A DNA stretch of 64,000 nucleotides from Ligula intestinalis (lineage: Eukaryota > Platyhelminthes > Cestoda > Diphyllobothriidea > Diphyllobothriidae): NCBI GenBank assembly GCA_036362985.1, contig JAYGXS010000005.1, positions 392,325 through 456,324 of the forward strand, written 5' to 3'. Position 1 is the stretch's first letter. Every line of letters starts with the position of its first letter. This document shows, piece after piece, positions 2,933 to 56,640 of this stretch. The translations under genes and the position numbers were made by a program. The notes beneath the pieces are model-generated. The model was given only the letters and a program-made list of their open reading frames with translations. It was not told where the DNA came from and did not search any database.

Positions 2933-3899
2933 GCTGTGCGTCTTTAAGACCCCTTCCCAACTAAGACTGCATGCTTGGGAGCTGCGCTTGCCTTCTTACG
3001 CTTTGAAAGGACGAAAGCGCCCCACAACTGCTTTATTTTTTACAAATACTTGAAGTCGCTCAGCAGTTACGTGTGAAGAGTTTCTAACTTCCTAGACTTT
3101 GCCATTTTTAAACCGCCAGCTTTGTTTTTCACTTGTGTTCCACCCGCGAGCTCTCTAGAAGTGTAATTTTTTGATTGCGTTCTTTTATCTGCCTTTCGTA
3201 CCCATGATTTCCAATCGTCTCTGGTATTGTCGTCAGCTCCACAGGAGGTATTATTTTTAATATGATCCGTGATAGTCATGTCTGGTCGATGGTGTGCCGT
3301 TCCATTCAGTAATTTCGTTATTATCGGTTGCTAGGCCCAAAAACCACTGACTTCTCAATACTTCTGTCACATTTAGATCAGTTTTGTCATGTGTAGATAC
3401 CAGTGCTTGCTAAGGGGGACTAAAACTTTGAAGACGACCCTTCTCACTCCTGTTACTCGAAGTGATTTGTAGGATTACTATTATCTCAATGACAGACGTT
3501 ATGCGTAGCTGTGGCCGTTGCGGAGTCACTTTATTTGACGAATTTAAGGCACGAATAAAAATTAATTGAGCATATCGCTATCGAACTGTTAATCCTAATG
3601 CTGCTTGCCATCACGCTTGACGATGTTTCTGACTGGTAAAATGTGTTCCAGCGAAGTGTTTCCGAACCCTTCTGTTCACTGTCAGTCACGCTTTATTATC
3701 ATTTGTGTCTTCACTCTCCTTTATACTCCTTACCTCGATGTTTTTTCATCTATCTGGCCGCACGCCTCCTCCAGACTGTTGGGCGAAAATATCAACACGT
3801 AAGTTCCTGACGTACTTGGACGTGTTGGTCATAGCTTGCAAATGTAAGCTTTTCAACTGATGGAGTAAGTCACCTTATTCATGAATATACACTAGGCAG
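2933..3899. other. No recognised gene
   Basis: This holds the PHF5A 3' flank. A possible polyadenylation hexamer AATAAA occurs at about 3555, which is far from the stop codon. A 70-codon minus-strand frame at 3067-3279 is charged and unlike any family I know. Confidence 0.4.
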
Positions 3900-17100: not shown

Positions 17101-19497
17101 TGAGACAGTGTCGACCCCGTGTAAGTTTCGAAACTCACAATGTGGTTGCTTCATAAACTGCTTTCGAACTGCAGCCCTAACCAGGAGAACGCACCCTTGG
17201 GGATTAATGACCGTCGAATTGAGGAAGTTAACAGTTTCAAACAGCTTGGGACAAGACTACTGTCTAATGGACAGAGTAACGACAGCATTGTCTCCCGACG
17301 GCTCGCGGGTTGCGGAACGCAGTTATACTGCCCTCGATTTGGCTCCGCTACGTCCCTGGAGGCGTCGAAGGAAGCAAAGCAAGACCAGGCTAGACACGCA
17401 GTCCCTAAAGACACAACAGTATTTATTGGATCTTCGATATTGGGTCTCCGTCGCTGCAGAAGGGAATGGGTCAGGCTGCCCCGATCCGCGTGTTGGCACG
17501 TAAAAATGTTCAATACATGGCATTATCGAGGTCGGGGAGATCAAGCATGATTATTGCCGTATCAGGTACAAGTACTATTGGAAATTCACTCTCAGAAAAG
17601 CACGGTTAAAGAATAACGCGCTGAATATTTGTCTATAGGAATTCAAGCCCCCACTTTTGAACTTGCATATAGGGTGTGGCTTTTTGTATCCTTTCTATTC
17701 CTTTTTATCTACTTCTGAACGTACATATAGGGTGTGTTCTTTTCTAAAGTAACACTGTATACGTCTTTATATCACTACGAAGATGACTTCTACTATTTAA
17801 AAAATACAGCGGTAAATGTGGATCACATGGAATAGCTTAAACTTAGTGAGAATAAGCCTGCAGAGACTAAGTTACACGAAACACTATGACGTCTAAAAAT
17901 TCCTTATCATCACAGACTCTTGTAAGATGGACAATCCGTTTATTTAGATACTGCAAGATGATACTTATGTACTGTCGTGTTAATAGTAATCTGACACTCG
18001 TTCACCTCTATCCTCTCACGCTTGTTGATTAACATTCATTCCTACCTTATCATACTCGTTGATTACCGTTCACCCCTACCTTCTTACACTCGTTGATTAA
18101 CATTCACCCCTGCCCCCTTACGAACGCTTGATTTTTGCCTATATATTCCTAACCACTCTTCATCCCTTTTCAGTTCATGTACAACAATTATAAGATGAGT
18201 AAAGCCCAATTCTAGAGTACTCGACTCCTCATTCTCCTCGACTGTTCGGTTATTGCGTACTGAATAACTCGACTTTATCCCAATCACGACATGTACATCA
18301 CTGCAAGAACCAGTAATCGGTTTAGGTAGAGAACGCGAAATTCAGCGAAACGAAACAGGGGTATCTTTGCCAGGTTTTACTCAGGGGACGGGCAATATCT
18401 AATAGGAGGGCGACCACGAGTTAACGCGTAACATCCCAAGCACGGTCGCAAGCCCACTTGAGTGGTATTTTCAGTCGTAAAACATACCCTAAAGTGTCCG
18501 CCAGCATTTCAACAGTTTTGGGAAATAGTGGGACGGCCACTACTACGGATCGCCTCGTGCTAAATTTCAGTGGATGGCATACTCCCGCATCCTACCTTTA
18601 ACCCCCCCCCCCCACTCTCCTAACAATATAGCTAAATCTGCATCTAGTGTACGACTGTCTACAGCATGGGATCCACATTCCATATTGTGCTGCACAATTA
18701 GCAAATTTAGTTTTATCGAAAAAGCAGTTCTCAATCATCAGCCGCCCTCATACAGGGGTTGATGTCTGAAAATAGCCCGGTAGTATGAAGATTCCGACGC
18801 CTCAGTGAGTGAGTGCTTCGTTACGGGGGACATAAACGGAAAGGCACGTCTCCTAGAGTTATAAAGCCGCAAAGGATAGCAACAGCCATGTAACGAATGA
18901 CAAAAATATCAGGAGAAGAATGAACCCCAGAACAAATGTGAAACGTACTTGAGGTAGCAAAGCTGACACGCTGATATTACGTGAGTCTGCAGCACAGATA
19001 CCGCGCACCAGAGCACTGCCAAGGTATTCAGCAAATTCATCATCGAAGCGAGTGCGCAGGAATTCGTCAACCGACATGTCCGTGTCTGGTGACAGACTGG
19101 GAGGGCCTCGAGAACAGGCCCGTCGAATTAGTAGGCCTAGGGGGGAACGTGTGAAGGGCCGCTGGGCAGTGAGGGCAGCTACGCGGAGGGGACGCGTGGC
19201 CCCTGCAGCATAGATCAGGCGCTGGGAGGGTGGCAACCAAACTACCTCCTGCTGCAAGCCCAGGCTGTGGATGAGGCGGAATAAGGGACTGGCGCCGGTA
19301 ACACGAACAGAGTGTGGTCCTAAATCCTGATAGGAGCCGGACTGGGGATACTGGACGGTTTTAACGTAACCACCAAACTCACTGGAGGCTTCGTAGAGGG
19401 AGACCCGAGTCACCAGACTGGCTGGTAGTTTGGAGAGCATGTAGGCCGTGGAGAGGCCCGAAACACCGCCCCCAACGACCACGCATCGTAGCGCCAT
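8148..19497 (-). CDS. PPOX: Protoporphyrinogen oxidase (three exons, complete)
   Basis: Exons on the minus strand are 19497-18949, 11055-10768 and 8897-8148: 183 + 96 + 249 codons, 528 aa. PPOX is the FAD enzyme of the mitochondrial inner membrane that oxidises protoporphyrinogen IX to protoporphyrin IX, the penultimate step of haem synthesis. Exon 1 opens with the dinucleotide-binding motif VVVGGGVSGLSTAY and has YEASSEFGGYVKTV and DLGPHSVRVTG. Exon 2 carries RILNFRTGMQTLTRAL. Exon 3 has FGHLVPRSECGPVLGIVYDS and the C-terminal FAD-binding HLVGSSFDGVGVGDCV. All junctions are phase 0 with GT donors (GTACGT, GTCAGT) and pyrimidine-AG acceptors (CTGTAG, TACCAG), and the joined protein follows animal PPOX throughout (human is 477 aa). 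The start is the first ATG after an in-frame TGA about 21 bp upstream. No stop or frameshift is seen. Confidence 0.93.
8898..10767 (-). other. PPOX intron 2
   Basis: An intron of 1870 bp with a GTCAGT donor and TTACCAG acceptor on the minus strand. I recognise no gene in it. Near 10500-10580 a short stretch (GGGATTCGAA then CTTATCACCTGACC) resembles an antisense tRNA T-arm and D-arm, possibly old SINE debris. Confidence 0.75.
11056..13979 (-). other. PPOX intron 1, 3' part: nothing recognised
   Basis: This is part of the 7.9-kb first intron (11056-18948). Open frames at 11027-11431 (minus), 11876-12109 and 12949-13212 (plus) show no motif I can place. The rest of the intron holds the elements listed separately. 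Confidence 0.5.
13980..14490 (+). mobile_element. Penelope-like element fragment (GIY-YIG end)
   Basis: This is homologous to the Penelope-like copy at 38460-38850. The plus strand reads as GYTGRATKHLEKRVREHVPPWL and then SILVHLVDMNHRVHSKEPFQVIYWTPANISKSLR, interrupted by stops. The first segment corresponds to the GIY-YIG nuclease core of this family. No reverse transcriptase part is present, so it is a 5'-truncated, dead copy in PPOX intron 1. Confidence 0.75.
14700..16290. repeat. Diverged tandem duplication, two units about 0.7 kb
   Basis: Unit 1 (about 14720-15440) and unit 2 (about 15565-16280) are direct repeats offset by about 843 bp. Paired landmarks are TCCATTAT (14737/15580), the ACTGAA(A/C)GAAGT block (about 14825/15680), GGAGATGCA (14987/15862) and the terminal ACTT(G/T)GTAGCAAT (15400/16242). 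Similarity is patchy with many indels, so the duplication is old. Neither unit has a coding frame that I recognise. It could also be two adjacent copies of an unknown non-autonomous element. Confidence 0.55.
16291..17094. other. No recognised gene (PPOX intron 1)
   Basis: I see no coding or RNA feature here. The 72-codon minus frame at 16723-16941 has no known motif. Confidence 0.4.
17095..17560 (+). mobile_element. RTE-like LINE C-terminal fragment
   Basis: The plus-strand translation gives the thumb motif RIEEVNSFKQLGTRLLSNGQ, then after a deletion LAPLRPWRRRRKQSKTRLDT and finally GLRRCRREWVRLPRSAC. These are three blocks of the same RTE-like family as 3900-6175 (compare VDNFKYLGARLLPNGQSK there). 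The blocks lie in two frames and are separated by deletions, so this is a non-functional fragment in PPOX intron 1. Confidence 0.8.
17975..18291 (+). mobile_element. Solo LTR of the self-priming Gypsy family
   Basis: This LTR starts TGTCGTG and ends CACGACA (7-bp inverted ends) and is flanked by a perfect 5-bp duplication TGTAC (17970-17974 and 18292-18296). It is clearly homologous to the two LTRs of the Gypsy element at 41881-46118. Its U3 part contains three to four tandem units of about 35 bp built on ACTCGTTGATTAACATTCA. The putative transcript start region TTATAAGATGAGTAAA is at 18188-18203. No internal genes remain, so it is a recombination product lying in PPOX intron 1. Confidence 0.9.
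18292..18948. other. No recognised gene (PPOX intron 1, 5' part)
   Basis: This contains a C12 homopolymer at 18602-18613. Nothing else was recognised. Confidence 0.4.
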
Positions 19498-23390: not shown

Positions 23391-24072
23391 ACTTTTGTCA
23401 GTCGCAAGCGAGTTACCTGCAAGGACCTTGAAAGCACAGTATTCGTTTGTACCTATTTTACTCCAGCCCAGTAAAACACTACAAAATGAATAATATTATT
23501 TGCTCAAAATGTTCAATAAACGCGCAAGCATGGCCAACCAGTTATCCTTATTTTCTTGAAAAGCTTTGGACTAATCAGGCGCCATACAAGCTTGTCGTTA
23601 ATATGACCTCAACAGCGCTGGAATTTTTATCACCGAGGATATCATTATTCAGCCTCATACGAAGGTCTCCGCGGTCTAACCTACTTGGCAATCTGCGTAC
23701 CGTGATTACCCCGCTAGTTATCTTATCAGCCAGACCTGACGGCCTAAATATTCACCATTGGTTTGACCCAAAGTGGACTATTGACGATCTGGACGGATGC
23801 CTCTGTTTTTCCAGTTCCGTTGGCGGACTCTGCAAACAGCATGGTGATGATCCTTGGAACCTTTGCAATGTCCCCCTCCCGCTAAAACACCCTTTTTTCT
23901 CCTCAATCCCACGCATTCCTCCCACAAGAGCGACAGTTTTTCTCCTAAAAATCACTGAGGAGTTTTGCACTGTCTGCTCCTATTTTCATCCTATGACATA
24001 GGACAACTGGCCTCGCCAACAGTCTAAGAAAAAAATTTTCTGCTTCCACTGCACCTATGTACAAATAGGGCA

Positions 24073-24200
24073 CTCAAAGGAATTTTTTCTACATATCCCT
24101 CAATATACTGATACAGAATGAATTCGTCCTCAATACATTACCTGCAACTGTCTCTATCAGTATCAGTATATTGAGGGTAGGTAGGAAAAATTCCTTTTTA
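24073..24200. repeat. Inner palindrome with about 40-bp stem
   Basis: AAAGGAATTTTTTCTAC...CTCAATATACTGATAC (24076-24114) pairs with GTATCAGTATATTGAG...GAAAAATTCCTTTT (about 24158-24198), leaving a loop of about 43 nt. It sits at the centre of the larger inverted repeat. Confidence 0.8.
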
Positions 24201-24310
24201 ATAATAATATGTTTATTATGCCAGTTTACAGGCAATTGTAAAGAGTTGGTAATGCGCCTCTTGGGCGCCTTCCAACATCTCGAAGACCGGAAAAAAACCT
24301 AAAACAAACT
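24197..24310 (-). mobile_element. 3' tail of a CR1-like LINE
   Basis: This segment is the reverse complement of the 3' UTR of the LINE ending at 56583, sharing CCTGTAAACTGGCATAATAA followed by ATTATTATT. It is a severely 5'-truncated copy of about 110 bp, located between the arms of the inverted repeat. Confidence 0.85.
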
Positions 24311-24901
24311 CCCTATGTTGCAGCCAGTATTGGTTTTGTTTCAGGTTTTTTGTTTTGTCAATACTTTGAGTGCCCTATTTGTACATATGTGCAGTGGTAG
24401 CAAAAAATTTGTTGCTAAGACTGTTGGCGAGGCCAGCTGTCCTGTGTAATAGGATGAAAATAGGAGCAGACAGTGAAAAAACTCCTCAGGGATTTTTAGG
24501 AGAAAAACTGTCGCCCTTGTGGGGGTAATGCGTGGGATTTTGGAGAAAAAGGGAGTTCCCACTGGGGGGGGGATTTCAAAGGTTCCCAGGATCATCACCG
24601 TGTGGATGCCACGTCCTGATTCTTCCTTGCTGATTGCAGAGTCCGCCAACGGAACTGAAAAAAGAGAGGCATCCGTCCAGATCGTCGACAGTCCGCTTTG
24701 GGTCGAACCAAGGGTGAATGTTTAGGCCGTCAGGTCTGGCTGATCAGATCGCAAGCGGTGTAATCACGGTACGCAGATAGCCAAATAGGGTAGACCGCGG
24801 AGACCTTCACATGAGGCTATGCGTGGGAGGATGTTATAAATAGCAAACGTGAATGGATATAAAAACTAATGCTACTGAAAAAAATGGAAGTAGTATTATC
24901 G

Positions 24902-36684: not shown

Positions 36685-36687
36685 GCA

Positions 36688-36759
36688 GCCCCCGGTGGGA
36701 TTCGAACCCACAACCTTCTGGGTAGAAACCAGACGCGCTATCCATTGCGCCACGGAGGC
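36688..36759 (-). tRNA. tRNA-Arg (anticodon TCT), intronless
   Basis: Seventy-two nt with a full cloverleaf. Acceptor GCCTCCG pairs with CGGGGGC (one T-G pair). D-arm GCGC-AATGGATA-GCGC. Anticodon arm TCTGG-TTTCTAC-CCAGA with TCT at positions 34-36, so it reads AGA codons. Variable loop AGGTT. T-arm GTGGG-TTCGAAT-CCCAC. Box A (TGGCGCAATGG) and box B (GGTTCGAATCC) are consensus, and a TTTT terminator follows. All stems are intact, so it is probably a functional gene rather than a SINE head, although single tRNA copies among repeats can be inactive. Confidence 0.93.
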
Positions 36760-40739: not shown

Positions 40740-41880
40740 CTCCTGTGAACGGTACAGATCATGTTTCAAATAGGGCATCGTATTTCTTATTGAATGGAGC
40801 AATTGTGTCGGCAGCAACAACGTCGGGGGGAGATTGTTCCATGCATTCACAGCGCGCCTTGAGTCGGTAGACGTGCGGGAGGCCATCTGTCCGTTGTACC
40901 ACCAGGTTGAAGCAGTGTTCTCGAGTGGGCATGTCAACGGCTAGTTTGAAGTACTCTGCGACCTCCGGTATGTCGCCGCAGACGATCACTTTGTACATCA
41001 TGATTTGGTCGCCTCTGGAGCGTCGAAATTCGAGGGTTCACAGGTCCAGTGCTTTACAACGCTCCGGATAGGTCAGCCTTCTCACTTCGGGCACCATTCT
41101 TGACCCTAGTCGTTGAACATATTCTATGTCAGTCATTTCGCTCTTCGTACACGGAAACCAAGCGGACGATCCATACTCCATGATCGCTCAAATAAACGTG
41201 ACCATGAGTTTACGGAATATCTGCATGGACCAGGACGTGAATGCTCTTTTGAACATCCAAAGTAGCGCTAGCCCCTTGCGTCTCGCCAAAGTTGATTGTT
41301 CTCGGGTCTTGAGGTCGTCCTGGATGATAACGCCCAAGTCTCGAGTACTCCTAACAGCGGCCAGTGTCATGTTTCCCATTGTATAGAACGGGTGGTCCCA
41401 GTCCCTCCCAATTATAAACAAGTTCGATTTGGTCACGTTTACCGGTATCTTGATCTCTAATGACAACTCGTGGATCACATCGAGATCATTTTGGAAAGTC
41501 ATTGTGTCTTCCGCGTTGCGTATGAGACGCCATACCTTGAGGTCGTCCGCGAAAAGAAGGCATGGGGATGCAAGTCTTGATGGGATATTCGCGGCGTATA
41601 TTGAAAACAGTCTGGGACCCAGCATCGGCCCTTGTGGTACTCCACTACGAGCCTCAAAAGCCGAGGAACACCCTTCGCCAACTCTGACCCCGCATTGTTC
41701 ACCGAATAGATACCCCTTGATCGATTTGATGACAGTTCTAGGTACCGGCGTGTTACTGAGTTTGTTTAGGAGAAGCACGTGATCGACTTTATCAAACGTC
41801 TTGCTAAGATCGATTAAGACTGCATGAACCGGCAGTCTTTTTTTGGCTTTGCACCAGGCTTCACGTGCCACCATGATGTT
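40740..41880 (-). pseudogene. LINE ORF2, 3' half (RT core to C-terminus)
   Basis: The long frame 41919-41188 begins inside the LTR; true LINE sequence starts at 41880. It has motif A AVLIDLSKTFDKVDHVLL, SGVPQGPMLGPRLFSIYAAN, an intact catalytic FADD in LLFADDLKVWRLIRN, and the thumb AVRSTRDLGVIIQDDLK. It stops at 41188 (FI then TGA). Downstream the 41001-40759 frame carries a C-terminal segment (LAVDMPTREHCFNLVVQRTD). It is the continuation of the 5' half at 46119-47690. Confidence 0.88.
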
Positions 41881-41962
41881 TGTGGTTGTAGTGTTAATAC
41901 TAATCTGACACTCGTTCACCCCCTTTTCCGCTCATTCCTGTTGATTAACATTCATCCCTACC

Positions 41963-42036
41963 AATACAAGCGAACATCCGTGTCCCAGGAAGCAATTGAG
42001 AAGAAGAAGAAGACTCAATCGAGTCTTCTTCTTCTC
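41963..42036. repeat. 74-bp insert ending in a 16-bp hairpin
   Basis: The insert is flanked by 13-bp direct repeats. Its last part is a palindrome: GAGAAGAAGAAGACTC pairs with GAGTCTTCTTCTTCTC (41998-42036, with three extra bases in the left arm). Confidence 0.8.
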
Positions 42037-42079
42037 ATTCATCCCTACCTTATCACACTCGTTGATTACCGTTACACGG

Positions 42080-42086
42080 TATTTAA
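42080..42086 (+). promoter_or_regulatory. TATA-like box of the 5' LTR
   Basis: TATTTAA lies 36 bp upstream of TTATAAGATG. The same spacing is kept in the 3' LTR (45979 and 46015). Confidence 0.55.
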
Positions 42087-42220
42087 CCTACTCAGTGTAT
42101 GTTCGTGTACGACAATTATAAGATGAGTAGAGCCCAATTCTACGGTACTCGACTTCTAATTCTTCTCGACTGTTCGGCTATTGCGTACTGAATAACTCGA
42201 CTATATTCCAATCACGAAAA

Positions 42221-42236
42221 TTTACTCATCTTATAA
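42221..42236 (+). promoter_or_regulatory. Putative self-priming primer binding site
   Basis: TTTACTCATCTTATAA begins one base after the 5' LTR. Its reverse complement TTATAAGATGAGTAAA is present in the 3' LTR (46015-46030) and solo LTR (18188-18203) without mismatch, and in the 5' LTR with one mismatch. The site does not begin with TGG as tRNA-primed sites usually do. Orientation is right for a primer 3' end next to U5. This matches the self-priming design of Tf1-type elements. Confidence 0.7.
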
Positions 42237-42242
42237 CTCAGA

Positions 42243-43010
42243 ATGGATCGGCTCCTCAAACCAGAACGATTTGATGTGGATCCGAATGCTCCGGACGCTT
42301 CCAAACAATGGAATTACTGGTTCTGCACATTCGAGAACTTTATGACAAATATCGAAAGCTTAAAGCCAAACAAATTGAGTGTCCTGACCAACTACGCCTC
42401 TTCGACCGTTTGGGAGTATATCAACGAATGCACCGCTTACGAAGATGCTATTAAGGCGCTGAAGGAGATATATTCAACACCTAAAAACGAGATCTTCGCC
42501 CGCCACCTTCTGCCGACCTGTAAACAAGAGGGTAGACAAACTCTCGATCAGTTTGCTCACAAACTGAAGTCTCTGGCTAAAGACTCTGAGTTCAAAGCAG
42601 TTACTGCACAACAAAACCGCGATAACGCCATTAGAGATGCCTTTATTAGTGGTCTTTTATCAAACCAAATTTGATAAAGACTGCTGGACCAGAAAACCCT
42701 GGATTTTCAAACAGCATTCGATCGAGCAAGATCTCTGGAATTGGCCGAAAAACAGTCTTTATCCTTTCAAAATCCTCCAACAACCTCATTCAATGTCACC
42801 ACTGAGGTGTGCGAAACTCCGTGCAGTCCTAACAAATCTGCGGACATCACAGCTTCCAGTTCGTCGTAAAATGAATGTTTCTTTTGTGGGTACGACAAAC
42901 ACCCTCGTTCGAAGTATCCCGCACGCGACGTGTTGTGCAAAGGATGCGGCAAAAAGGAACACTTCCAAAAGGTTTGTATGACATCGCGAAACAGAAGGAT
43001 CCTTTCCTCT
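42243..43010 (+). pseudogene. Gypsy gag with zinc knuckles, nonsense-mutated
   Basis: The frame starts MDRLLKPERFDVDPN seven bases after the primer site and reads as a capsid-like region (WNYWFCTFENFMTNIE, EGRQTLDQFAHKLKSLAKDS). It meets TGA TAA at 42672-42677 and TAA at 42867-42869 but continues in the same frame through RLLDQKTLDFQTAFDRARSL to two zinc knuckles. The first (CFFCGYDKHPRSKY) has lost its last cysteine; the second (CKGCGKKEHFQKVC) is a complete CX2CX4HX4C. Gag packages element RNA into particles. The first two stops look like C-to-T changes of CGA and CAA. Confidence 0.85.
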
Positions 43011-43029
43011 ACCCACCCCACTATTTCCG

Positions 43030-45840
43030 CCATCGCATCGGCTACTGCAACAGACTACAGATCAATGGGGCCAACTTCGAAGCCTTAATAGACACAGGTA
43101 GTTCGGAGAGCTACGTCTCTTCCTCGGTAGTACTCAAAAATGATTGGAAAATCCACCACTCTCGCACCAAAATGTATATGGCCACTACCACTAACGAGCG
43201 CCACACAGGGACACGTTTTCGTCTCCATTAAATACAAAGGTGCCGTCTACAAAAAGTTCAGGCTATCGATCTTGCCAAATTTATGTGCCGACATATTACT
43301 TGGCCATGACTTTCTTCGCTTACATAGAAGCATCGAAATTCCTTTTGGTGGACCTAAATTTACATTCTCACCCTGTTCTATTGCTTCCACGTGCGTCGAA
43401 CCTCCCTGTTTATTTCCTAATCTAACCCCGGACTGTAAGCCAATCGCAACAAAATCTCGTCGACACACTAACGTTGATGAAAGGTTTATTCAGGAATAAA
43501 TTCGTCATCTTTTGGCTGATGGAGTAATTGAGCCTTCTTCCTCCCCCTGGCGAGCCCAAGTCCTGGTGGTAGCCACTGAAAATCACAAAAGGCGAATGGT
43601 TGTTGATTATAGCCAGACGATCAACAAATACACTCTACTCGATGCCTATCCATCTCCCAAGATAGACGAAATGATTGAAAATATTGCCAACTACGACACC
43701 TATAGCATTCTTGACCTCAAGAGCGCGTATCACCAGATACCTATCTGGGCAGACGAAAGACCATACACTGCCTTCGAAGCTTGTGGACGTTTGTATCAAT
43801 TTTGTCGAATCCCGTTTGGGGTCACCAACGGAGTTGCCTGTTTTTGATGAACCACTGATGATATAATTACACGCGAACACCTGAAGGATGTGTTTGTTTA
43901 TGTAGACAATATCACCATTTGTGGAAACGGCATCACAGAACACAATTTAAACCTTCAAAAATTCCTCGACGTTGCTGCAAAATATAGACTAACTTTCAAT
44001 AAAGCAAAAAGCGTCGTTTCTCATCAAATAAAGCTTCTTCGTTACGAAGTGTCCAAAGGTAACATCAGACCGGATCCAGATCGTCTGAAACCCTTGCGTG
44101 AGATGGCTGCTCCAAACGATATAAAGTCACAGCAACGAGCCGTTGGATTGTTCGCTTACTATTCGCAATGGATATCCCACTTTTCAGATAAGATCCATCT
44201 GCTTATCCACAACAAAACTTTTCCTCTACCACCAGAAGTACTTGAAACATTTGAAGCACTTAAGGAAGAACTTGCGAAATCCACGATCGCTACCATCCAA
44301 TATAATATCCCACTGGTTGTTGAGACTGACGCTTCAGACGTCGCCATTGCTGCCACACTGAACCAGAATGGTAGACCAGTAGCATTTTTTGCGTAGTTTA
44401 TCACCAAACGAGCGTCACCATTCTGCGGTCGAGAAAGAAGCGTATGCCGTAGTGGAATCCATACATAAATGGAAACATTTTCGTCTCTGCAATCATTTTA
44501 AACTAATTACAGATCAACGTTCTGTTGCTTTTATCTATGGTAATCAACAAAAAGGGAAGGTGAAGAATGCGAAAATTGAACGCTGGAGATTGGAATTATC
44601 GCTATTCAAGTTTGACATTATTTACAGACCTGGCAAAGAAAACCGTGCAGCCGATACCCTTTCCCGTAGTTGTTGTGGGGCCATGCTAACAGATGTCAAT
44701 CTGAAGGAACTACACGCATCTCTGTGCCATCCTGGGATCTCTCGGTTATCACACTTTGTACGAGCTAGAAATCTACCCTTTTCGATGGAAAAGATTCGTA
44801 ATGTTGTTACAAGATGTCCAACGTGTTGTGAAGTCAAACCCCGTTTCTTCAAAACACAAGGTCAGCTAATAAATGCCACTTAACCCTTCGAGCGGCTGTC
44901 ACTCGATTTGAAGGGTCCACTTCCGTCTGTGACCCGCAGTCGTTATCTGCTGACGGTTATTGATGAATACTCCCGTCTTCCGTTTGGATTCGCCTGTTCC
45001 GATCAATCTGCAGAAACCATTATTAAATGTTTATGCCAACTCTTTGCCATCTTCGGTACTCCTTTATATGTACACACCGATCGAAGATCCTCATTTATGT
45101 CGAACGACGTACAACAATTTCTCCATAATAGGGGGGGGGGGCGACGAGTAGGACAACTCCATATAATCCCCAAGGAAGCGGACAAGTTTAAAGTCTGAAC
45201 CAAACGTTGTGGAAGACCATTTTGCTTGCTTTGAAATCTAGAAATTTGCCTGTTACACACTGGGAATCCGTCCTCTTCGACGCTCTACACTCCATCAGGT
45301 AACTTTTATGTACCGCCACTAACGCGACACCCCATGAAAGAATGTTTGCCTATAATCGGAGATCAACCACTGGAACCACTTTTCCTATGTGGCACTCTTC
45401 CCTTGGTCGAGTCCTGTTGAAGAAGAGTAACCAACAGTCCAAATATGACCCGCTCTGTGAGGAAGTTGATCTACTCCAGTGCAACCCTAAGTACGCTCAT
45501 ATACGATTTGACGATGGCAGAGAAGACAGTATCTGTTCGACTACTGACTCCTAGAGGTGAAAAGGATCTCAGTGATCATCATCAGGAGACGGCCACTCCC
45601 TCAGTCGAAAATTCCGTTCCACCTCCGCCTCACCAATCACCCAATGCCGAACTGGAAAACAGCACCGGCTGTACTGACAACCAAGGTGTAACAACGCCTG
45701 ATCATGACCATAATGAAAACGACCCACATGAGCATAACCTGGAGACGTTAATAAAACAACAACAACGCGTCCATCCATACTGCCTTCGCAACCGAGACGC
45801 TTACGATTCATCCCACTCAAACTCTAGAGTAGATTTGTGA
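43030..45840 (+). pseudogene. Gypsy pol: protease, RT, RNase H, integrase
   Basis: Protease: FEALIDTGSSESYVSSSVV (DTG at 43091). RT: GVIEPSSSPWRAQVLVV, KRRMVVDYSQTINKYTLLDA, SILDLKSAYHQIPI (motif A), FCRIPFGVTNGVACF, then the catalytic box as YVDN in place of YVDD (VFVYVDNITICG, about 43895). RNase H: VVETDASDVAIAATLN (44325), ALSR-equivalent AADTLSR at 44650. Integrase: HASLCHPGISRLSHFVRARN with HHCC zinc residues, first Asp in LTVIDEYSRLPF (44960), second in VHTDRRSSFMS (45075), and the third acidic residue lost to a TAA at GQV-stop (45190). A G10 run near 45131 shifts the frame. The C-terminus ends with PYCLRNRDAYDS near 45800. Breaks occur near 43010, 43215, 43500, 43845, 44396 and 44883. 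Confidence 0.9.
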
Positions 45841-45865
45841 ACATTATGCCCCTTTTTTGTTGGCC

Positions 45866-45873
45866 GGGGAGAA
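45866..45873 (+). promoter_or_regulatory. Polypurine tract
   Basis: GGGGAGAA immediately precedes the 3' LTR, the normal priming site for plus-strand DNA of LTR retroelements. Confidence 0.75.
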
Positions 45874-46118
45874 TGTGGTGTTAATACTAATCTGACACTC
45901 GTTCACCCCCTTTCCGCTCATTCTTGTTGAGTAACATTCAGCCCTACCTTATCACACTCGTTGGTTACCGTTACAAGTTATTTAACCTACTCAGTGTACG
46001 TTCGTGTACGACAATTATAAGATGAGTAAAGCCCAATCCTAGGGTACTCGACTTCTAATTCTTCTCGACTGTTCGGCTATTGCGTACTGAATAACTCGAC
46101 TATGTCCCAATCACGACA
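45874..46118 (+). repeat. 3' LTR, 245 bp
   Basis: It starts TGTGGTGTTAATACT and ends CAATCACGACA. It lacks the 74-bp insert of the 5' LTR and carries two U3 units of the ACTCGTTG type. TATA-like box at 45979-45985; predicted start region TTATAAGATGAGTAAA at 46015-46030. Confidence 0.92.
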
Positions 46119-47690
46119 GTGTTACACGATTTGCCCTTAAGAAAGCCATGTTGTTCTGTTGGTAGGATTGTGGCTGGCCCAATGTGAGCATCGATTTCGC
46201 GACAGATTAAGTTTTCGAGTACTTTCACAAACACCGAGGTCAGGCTGACTGGTCGATAATGCTGGGGAAGAAAACGGTCGCCACCCTTGTACCTCGGAGT
46301 TATTATACTCTGTGTCCAGTCATCTGGTACCGTTGCAGTTTCAAGCGTACAGAGAAACAGTGCTTTGATGCTTGGTGCAATTATAGAAGCTAGCTCGCTT
46401 ATTACCCTCCGATTAAGATTGTCGGGTCCAGCAGCCTTAGTAGGTATCAACCTGCTTAGTGCATTCTCCACGTCTTCAATGGTGATTAGCATGCCATTTT
46501 CAGTTTGGTCATGGATCACAAAATCCTCCCTGTCGGGCGCTGGTGGCAAGTAAACAGAAGAGTATTGTTGAGCTAGAAGTTCAGCCATACATAACTCATC
46601 GGTTTAGAGCACACCATCTGTATTGTAGAGACCCTGGATGCCCGGGCTTTCACGACGCTTCCTCTTCAGAAACGAGTAGAATCGATTCGGTTGAAAGTCA
46701 ACGTTTTTCAGCAGATCCTCTTCGTATGCTACTTTTCTTGCCCTCATCATACGTGTGCATTCATCTCTGTGTGCTTTGTATTTTGTTTTTGCTTCGGTAG
46801 TTTTTAGGATCATGAAGGCTTTGTAGGCACGTTTTTTGGCCTTGAACTTGCGTTTTGTCTCACCATTCATCCATGGGGGATGACATGCTGCCCATCCACA
46901 GAGCGTAAAGGGGACAAAATCAGTACAGAGTTGCTCAATATTCCCACGAATCACTCTCCAGCGTTCTAAATCGGCCGAGCTACTCGGTTCCCAGGATAGG
47001 TTCCTAGCGCTCTGTCTCATTTCATCGTAGTCAGTCTTCCAGTATGCGGGTTTGTAGCATCTACGTGGAGTGCTGCGAAGACAGTAGCATGATCATTGGT
47101 GCCTAGGGGTGCGGAGACCCGAGCATCAGATACTTTTGTGTACCCATTTGTGAATATCAAGTCCAGACAGGAAGCCATACCCGAGTCGGCTATCCGCGTA
47201 GGCTGGGCAACATGTTGTACAAGATGGGTTTCGTTTGTCATTTCCAACAACGCGTTCTCCGTTTCAGAGCCAGGACCTTCGATGTTCAGATGAGCCCAGT
47301 TGATATGTAGGCAATTGAAATCACCGACAATACAGACCCGCGACCTTCTGGTATACTTTTTGAGTGTAGTCAACGAGTTTATACCGTCGGCTTGAGGAAA
47401 TCCTATATAAAGCCTACATATAAAACCTATATAAAGCATTCCTATATAAAACCTATGGTTGTGGTTGCACCAGTAGCAGCCTTGACCGACACCCAGAGTT
47501 GTTCAACCCGGTTGTCTTCCGTGCGCGTGCGTTCTAACAGTCTATCAATGAGTCCATCGGTCGCATATAACAAGACACCTCCATGTATCCTATCGTTACG
47601 GTCGCAACGGAATACTCGGTAACCGGGCACATTGATCTCACTATCCGTTACGGATTCAAATAGCCAGGCCTCTGTCACCGCAATAATCGC
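46119..47690 (-). pseudogene. LINE ORF2, 5' half (endonuclease and RT N-terminus)
   Basis: Endonuclease frame 47678-47442 has TEAWL, VPGYRVFRCDRNDRIHGGVL and VSVKAATG. Frame 47439-47017 has VCIVGDFNCLHINWAHLN, ASCLDLIFTNGY and GTNDHATVFA, with the usual SDH altered to NDH. A short tandem of CCTATATAAA units at 47400-47455 has been inserted, giving YIGFICRLYIGF. Linker: HPPWMNGETKRKFKAKKRA. RT start: AAGPDNLNRRVISELASI, HYRPVSLTSVFVKVLENLI and QHGFLKGKSC at 46150. The frame then runs into the Gypsy LTR and continues at 41880. Confidence 0.88.
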
Positions 47691-56463: not shown

Positions 56464-56640
56464 GAACACTGTTTGTTTTAGGTTTTTTACGGTCTTCGAG
56501 ATGTTGGAAGGCGGCCAAGAGGTGCATTACCAACTCTTTACAATTGCCTGTAAACTGGCATAATAAACATATTATTATTATTAGAAGTCGAACGCCTACC
56601 TTTCTTCGCCATCACAGGATGCTTCGATAGTTTCCAAATT

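Follow-up and report, generated by a model that had tools for sequence, protein, structure and literature searches.

A degenerate Ty3/Gypsy element in the tapeworm Ligula intestinalis belongs to a family that probably primes its own reverse transcription

Introduction

A 64-kb stretch of the Ligula intestinalis genome (hereafter the window, meaning the whole stretch that was analysed) contains a decayed Ty3/Gypsy element in which a segment of the long terminal repeats (LTRs) is complementary to the bases that follow the 5' LTR, at the place of the primer binding site (PBS). Does this element descend from a family that primes its own reverse transcription? An earlier note on this DNA, made from the letters of the window, had proposed that it does, with the 5' region of the RNA pairing with the site beside U5, in the manner of Tf1. 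We examined this proposal in the window, in the other copies of the family in the genome, and in distant relatives, and we put at about 0.88 the probability that the window element is a degenerate copy of a Ty3/Gypsy family with self-primed, Tf1-like reverse transcription.

According to the available parts of three sources, self-priming has been reported for Tf1/sushi elements of yeast and vertebrates and predicted for the Tcn1-like chromoviruses and for the TAR copia lineage of plants (PMC6317226, PMC4600332, PMC7175516). The Tf1 primer is described as the first 11 bases of the RNA (PMC7175516), and cleavage by RNase H as the step that makes it (PMC7175516, PMC4600332). For SM-Tcn1 and Skipper, the available parts of the relevant papers report that no LTR complementarity was found (PMC2864245, PMC5006619).

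The element and its surroundings

The element spans positions 41887-46118 (4232 bp), and its features lie on the plus strand. The 5' LTR (41887-42219, 333 bp) was delimited by LTR alignment, termini, and repeats, and the 3' LTR (45874-46118, 245 bp) by LTR alignment and termini. The target site duplication (TSD) reads GTGGT at 41882-41886 and GTGTT at 46119-46123, with one mismatch. A solo LTR of the same family at 17973-18291, also on the plus strand, has a perfect 5-bp TSD (TGTAC/TGTAC). The LTRs of the family have the termini TGTNGTG...CACGAMA; the 5' LTR of the window element ends in AA, and its 3' LTR and the solo LTR end in CA. The insertion is not young: its 5' and 3' LTRs are identical at 231 of 245 aligned positions, and their alignment contains 88 gap columns.

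Between the LTRs we found the first part of gag, an open reading frame interrupted by a stop (42243-42674), which matches Retrotrans_gag below the Pfam cut-off and has 41 homologous proteins. It is followed by the reverse transcriptase (RT) and the start of RNase H, in pieces (43500-44396; RVT_1, RT_RNaseH_2, RT_RNaseH), and by RNase H, an integrase zinc finger below cut-off and the integrase core, also in pieces (44383-45198; RT_RNaseH, Integrase_H2C2, rve). The end of the polypurine tract, GGGGAGAA, was recognised by its sequence at 45866-45873, before the 3' LTR. The LTR pair, the TG...CA ends, the TSD, the polypurine tract, gag, and the position of RT-RNase H before the integrase place the element in Ty3/Gypsy. 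Two pieces of its RT are 86% and 80% identical to one protein of Spirometra erinaceieuropaei, which agrees with a flatworm as host, probably a diphyllobothriid-like tapeworm.

The Gypsy element is inserted in a reverse transcriptase gene on the minus strand, which we take to be a non-LTR element. RVT_1 matches of this gene flank the insertion at 41188-41931 (E 3e-15) and 46100-46603 (E 6e-4, below cut-off), and pieces of it are present as inverted copies, 92-98% alike, at 1488-2254 and 41172-41489, around 39 kb apart. The extra sequence of the 5' LTR, which neither the 3' LTR nor the solo LTR has, contains a palindrome at 41998-42036 (GAAGAAGAAG; GAGAAGAAGAAGAAGACTC / GAGTCTTCTTCTTCTC). Elsewhere in the window, a fold-back structure at 23651-24818 resembles a foldback element, with nested inverted arms of 194, 96, and 117 nt (90, 83, and 91% complementary); a piece of 105 nt from its centre (24199-24303) recurs inverted at 56476-56580 (94%). 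A tRNA-Arg (tct) gene lies at 36687-36759 on the minus strand and was also found in the covariance model search of the whole genome.

A self-complementary primer binding site in the window

The putative PBS, TTTACTCATCTTATAA, lies at 42221-42236, one nucleotide past the end of the 5' LTR. This spacer (42220) is an A in 60 of the 67 family copies described below. The complement of the site occurs without mismatch in the 3' LTR (46015-46030) and in the solo LTR (18188-18203), and with one mismatch, near the 3' end, in the 5' LTR (42116-42131). We refer to these places as primer segments. The coordinates and mismatch counts given by the earlier note are correct, as is its remark that the site lacks a TGG start: the PBS begins with TTT.

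When up to three mismatches are allowed, the PBS and the three primer segments are the only matches in the 64 kb, where dinucleotide shuffles give a mean of 0.79 matches and a maximum of 3. The longest exact complement of the 18 nt starting at 42221 is 14 nt in the 5' LTR and 16 nt in both the 3' LTR and the solo LTR. We also compared 46,198 random 18-mers of the window with the 5' LTR; a single one matched over at least 13 nt (it reached 14) and none over 16. The complementarity is therefore real and beyond chance. Its first sighting in one degenerate copy could have pointed to an accident or to an assembly artefact of that copy. We rejected this explanation on the match counts against shuffles and random 18-mers, and it is refuted by the copy data, which comprise dozens of copies on many contigs plus two other sources; its probability is close to nil.

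Pairing and covariation across the family

We searched the assembly (644 Mb, 2377 contigs) for further copies. The DNA search with the LTR/PBS region gave 100 matches and the gag search 122, often with several pieces per copy. The resulting alignment has 99 rows: the window, 28 of 30 loci from the LTR/PBS search (the other two are the window itself), 30 loci from the gag search, and 40 hand-picked places from the gag search, most of them divergent. Dropping 23 duplicates left 76 distinct rows, and removing nine with more than two gaps in the 16 paired positions left 67 usable copies.

Primer segment and PBS pair at all 16 positions in 23 of these copies, at 15 or more in 38, at 14 or more in 48, and at 12 or more in 59. 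In 11 of the 67, pairing extends to 18 of 18 positions, i.e. AATTATAAGATGAGTAAA. Pairing falls below 12 of 16 in the remaining eight (L068, L071, L074, L077, L079, L086, L091, and L092). Except for L079, which is discussed below, the poorly pairing or gapped copies look old or misaligned. Own-copy pairing averages 13.985 of 16, compared with 13.01 (sd 0.109) when the PBSs are shuffled among copies, and none of 20,000 shuffles reaches the observed value, in a comparison that ignores the kinship of the copies. In the correct register 87.8% of the pairs are Watson-Crick, against 24-39% in eight shifted registers.

We then considered the changes along a tree of 61 copies, made from positions outside primer and PBS. 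Six of the 67 were omitted from it (four pairing at fewer than 9 of 16 positions, and the flipped copies L044 and L059, see below). Nine double changes that keep the pairing fall on the same branch, compared with one in each of five cyclically shifted registers. Four of the nine are at position 14. At position 5, which also separates the two main subfamilies, both sides change, never on one branch. The main natural double variant is TTGTAAGATGAATAAA / TTTATTCATCTTACAA, found for example in L069. In the 40 picked loci, most of which are divergent, we also scanned the region near the gag start blindly for its best inverted match. This match was the primer:PBS pair in 23 of them, a count that excludes L089, whose best inverted match lies elsewhere, and the pair beat the best of 20 shuffles in 15 of the 40. 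Copies without complementarity, which the earlier note had named as evidence that would speak against it, are thus a minority, and the covariation of primer site and LTR that it had called for is present. On this evidence from sequence comparison, the self-complementary PBS is a trait of the family.

tRNA priming as an alternative

Could a tRNA prime instead, with its 3' end or with an internal stretch as in copia's half-tRNA, the complementarity to the LTR being incidental? Flatworm Gypsy elements have been described with tRNA primers. In the available parts of the respective sources, PwRn1/CsRn1-like elements have a tRNA-Trp primer and a 4-bp TSD (PMC2582038), lennie has a tRNA-Leu primer (PMC4558846), and Saci2-like families have primer types for Leu, Gly, and Lys tRNAs with 4-bp TSDs (PMC12471100); in the main text of the latter the term "self-prim" does not occur. 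However, the PBS of the window family starts with TTT and not with TGG. The genome search yielded at least 42 tRNA genes, and we compared 36 of them (29 distinct), an incomplete set comprising Lys, Thr, Ala, Cys, Arg, and Met tRNAs, one gene without an assigned type, and two that went unrecognised by ARAGORN. Among these 36 genes no tRNA fits as the would-be primer, and the better-matching tRNA that could have overturned the earlier note did not appear in this incomplete set. The best match was no better than that of shuffled primers, 49 of 200 shuffles equalling or beating it.

The same comparison does recognise a tRNA-type site in L079 (G000:C3:11299020-11300070), a distant gag relative with 29% identity, whose site TGGCGCCC... 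(TGGCGCCCAAC) fits tRNA-Lys over 8 contiguous nt. By this site, L079 offers, within one genome, a tRNA-primed counterpart to the family. Nor does a tRNA primer explain the changes that match between LTR and PBS or the different pairs of the two relatives described next. Given the start of the PBS, the comparison with the incomplete tRNA set, and the covariation, we rejected tRNA priming, which we consider highly improbable.

Relatives with the same layout and different letters

A gag profile search of prokaryote genome contigs returned two contaminant contigs, JAAESD010000556.1 (L001) and JABSRZ010000027.1 (L002). Both are filed under bacterial metagenome bins, and both carry Gypsy elements that are of animal origin by their relatives. 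In both, the end of pol, one LTR, and the start of gag are consecutive, as in a collapsed or circular assembly. In L001, a primer TATTGTTGATTAAA at 372-385 matches a PBS TTTAATCAACAATA at 437-450 with a score of 14 (best of 20 shuffles, 10), and in L002 a primer TAATGTAATAAAA at 3275-3287 matches a PBS TTTTATTACATTA at 3338-3350 with a score of 13 (best of 20 shuffles, 11). The PBS again lies one base past the end of the LTR (ACA), as in the window family, and the boundary GAA/TGT between polypurine tract and LTR is common to the window element, L001, and L002. By sequence, the two relatives have the layout of the window family with different letters, over 14 and 13 nt. In all three lineages at least 10 nt of the 5' LTR are complementary to a site 0-5 bp after the LTR, the minimum of 10 bp for self-priming being taken from the available part of PMC6317226.

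The RT pieces of L001 and L002 are 59% and 61% identical to that of the window, and a protease was detected in L001 with Pfam. The RT-RNase H region of L001 is 81% identical to a protein of the sea anemone Actinostola, and identities range from 51 to 92% among the best 120 of 1614 matches, where the named relatives include proteins from corals, a mollusc, a spider, a nematode, and flatworms. Some of these animal relatives are named as retrovirus-related Pol polyproteins of transposon opus or 17.6 (Trichonephila, Clonorchis, Plakobranchus, Trichinella) and others carry different names (Actinostola, Oculina, Paramuricea, Spirometra); both groups are known here from their proteins alone. Searches of IMG/VR with gag, integrase, and RT profiles gave no further relatives. 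A second RT-bearing contig piece from the metagenome bin of L001 (L141) shows no repeated LTR in the 3324 bases that were covered, and was set aside.

Putative RNA start

The earlier note had placed the 5' end of the RNA at TTATAAG, from its distance to a TATTTAA motif. In the 5' and the 3' LTR alike, this motif does start 36 bp ahead of TTATAAG. Among 31 distinct upstream sequences, each made of an intact primer motif and the 70 bases before it, TATTTAA at 34 nt before AATTATAAG occurs only in the two LTRs of the window element, and this part of the proposal is not supported. In 21 of the 31 there is a TATATAA-like motif 46-47 nt before AATTATAAG, and in 23 an initiator-like T(T/C)AGTT whose first base lies 16 nt before it; eight of the 31 have none of the listed promoter motifs. 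The A of the initiator-like motif lies around 32 bp after the TATA motif, which is the usual spacing from TATA to start. The RNA may therefore start around 14 nt upstream of the primer in most copies, which would leave a short 5' overhang.

Predicted folding and the proposed priming step

Eight leaders, chosen among well-pairing copies, were folded. The primer:PBS helix is part of the minimum free energy structure in all eight, complete in seven and with 15 of 16 pairs in L025. Its mean pair probability is 0.93-0.98, except for a moderate 0.61 in L002, and the folding z-scores are -3.48 for the window, -5.06 for L001, and -5.05 for L002. The predicted hairpin closes a loop of around 90 nt in the window family and around 50 nt in L001 and L002.

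Directly 3' of the primer there is a possible small hairpin GCCC...GGGT (42132-42146 in the window, where one change weakens it). In the predicted folds it forms as GCCC/GGGT in L007, L010, and L015, with three pairs in the window, as GCCTA/TAGGT in L001, and as TGG/CCA in L002; it is absent from those of L025 and L069. If G-U is counted as a pair, 39 of the 67 copies can form all four GCCC/GGGT pairs. The start of this hairpin may be the point of RNase H cleavage.

Pairing of the same letters could also take place in trans, the primer coming from the R copy at the 3' end of the RNA or from a second genomic RNA rather than from the folded 5' end of the same molecule. If R starts at or before the primer, these letters recur near the 3' end, and sequence alone cannot tell cis from trans. 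The short cis loop and its stable predicted fold argue against this possibility, and we regard it as unlikely.

The last six bases of the primer resemble a poly(A) signal in 53 of the 67 copies (AGTAAA in 35, AATAAA in 16, ATTAAA in 2). In the window, the primer segment of the 3' LTR ends in AGTAAA and that of the 5' LTR in AGTAGA. The primer of L001 ends in ATTAAA, and L002 has AATAAA one base inward. From what is generally known of such signals, these hexamers may be working poly(A) signals. Since this hexamer forms the 3' end of the primer, pairing with the PBS may mask the signal at the 5' end of the RNA, while the copy at the 3' end stays active. One could go further and suppose that the helix is a structural RNA element, serving packaging, dimerisation, or the masking of the poly(A) signal, and has no part in priming. 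The recurrence of the hexamer, which L001 and L002 have at the corresponding place, and the strong folding would suit such a role. Yet in the window family, L001, and L002 alike, one arm of the helix lies exactly at the place of a PBS, a single base past the LTR, where we saw no TGG-type site. As a structural helix would not need the position of a PBS, this explanation is less apt, and we judge it very unlikely.

Self-priming in cis is thus the reading we prefer. Its core is the LTR stretch of 16-18 nt that complements the site one base after the 5' LTR. In the proposed mechanism, folding of the RNA would bring (AA)TTATAAGATGAGTAAA, which lies close to the 5' end, into a helix with the PBS, and the RNase H of the element would cut the RNA after ...AAA. 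The freed 3' OH beside U5 would then prime minus-strand strong-stop DNA, giving a minus-strand 5' end in which RNA ...GAUGAGUAAA is joined to U5 DNA. The rest of R would guide the first strand transfer, and copying of the attached RNA primer would re-create the PBS. The pairing across copies, the double changes matched by branch, the two relatives with other letters, and the RNA folding all support the central proposal of the earlier note, that the 5' region of the RNA pairs with the site beside U5 as in Tf1.

Copies with a flipped U5

In three copies the end of the LTR is inverted directly behind the primer. In L044 (G000:C10:11619759-11619793) and L059 (G000:C125:13460-13494) the whole U5 and the spacer are flipped between an intact primer and the PBS. 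In L142 (G000:C2:88627226-88627260) the primer is followed by 12 nt, made up of the spacer and the flipped LTR end, and then by gag, with a short microhomology at the junction. A genome-wide search for such junctions, with up to three mismatches, found these three, and a control with the reversed pattern found none. L044 and L059 differ at 6 of 89 U5 positions and in the ends of their PBSs, which suggests that they arose by separate events.

Such copies are possible by-products of a misfired self-primed transfer. The minus strand, whose 3' end at the PBS has the sequence of the primer, could pair by that end with R' at its own 5' end. Extension would first copy U5, the spacer, and the RNA primer still attached, and would proceed from there on R of the plus-strand strong stop. 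The flips fit this model and are not proof of it, because chromosomal recombination between the inverted arms would give the same structure in L044 and L059.

Comparison with known systems

The family shares with the Tf1/sushi elements of fungi and vertebrates (including Tj1 and Tcn1-like elements), as these are described in the available parts of the literature, a segment at or near the 5' end of the RNA that complements a PBS right after the 5' LTR. The differences are a paired length of 13-18 nt against 11 in Tf1, a primer that ends in a poly(A)-signal-like hexamer, an RNA start that may lie around 14 nt upstream, and invertebrate animal hosts. With Pfam, no chromodomain or Tf2-1-type domain was found at E 0.1 in the C-terminal pieces of L002 and of L001, the latter truncated where its contig ends, nor at E 0.01 in positions 45421-45840 of the window. 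Because no chromodomain was detected, we did not file the family in Tf1/sushi. By its sequence it appears to work like Tf1/sushi, from which it is set apart by domain content and not by an RT tree. The TAR lineage of plants likewise has a 5' LTR complementary to a site 0-5 bp after the LTR, as described in the available part of PMC6317226, but belongs to another superfamily (Ty1/copia) and another host kingdom.

Among flatworm elements, the Saci2/lennie-like Ty3/Gypsy elements of tapeworms share the kind of host and TGT...ACA LTRs. They have Gag-Pol in one frame, and in the window family open frames of up to 1199 aa were found at gag. The tRNA-type PBS and 4-bp TSD of that clade are lacking in the window family, which has instead a self-complementary PBS and 5-bp TSDs (two examples); these features, and not an RT tree, set it apart. 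The CsRn1/PwRn1 elements of trematodes and insects are also Ty3/Gypsy, with flatworms among their hosts, but carry a PBS for tRNA-Trp (TGG...), where that of the window family starts with TTT. Among the open-access papers listed by our searches, we found no description of a self-primed Gypsy element from a flatworm, a schistosome, Hydra, or another invertebrate, nor of an element with inverted U5; within that scope, the earlier note was right that no flatworm Gypsy had been described this way.

Implications

What we describe looks like a known kind of mechanism in an apparently new lineage. Peculiar to this lineage are the longer primer, the poly(A)-like hexamer at the primer end, a possible 5' overhang, and the flipped-U5 copies. 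A broader reading would combine three ideas, namely that self-priming is both ancestral and general in a large non-chromoviral Gypsy lineage of animals (cnidarians, molluscs, arthropods, nematodes, and flatworms), that the primer helix acts as a poly(A) switch, and that the flipped-U5 copies are genomic fossils of priming. We advance this combination tentatively, and think it somewhat less probable than its contrary.

Self-priming would free the element from the tRNA pool of its host and, by inference, from silencing by tRNA fragments. If a further animal lineage, one in which no chromodomain was detected, is shown to use self-priming, the mechanism would have arisen, or been kept, more than once. 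Annotation that looks for tRNA primer sites alone would miss or mislabel such elements. The natural double mutants and the possible misfired products make the mechanism testable in living animals.
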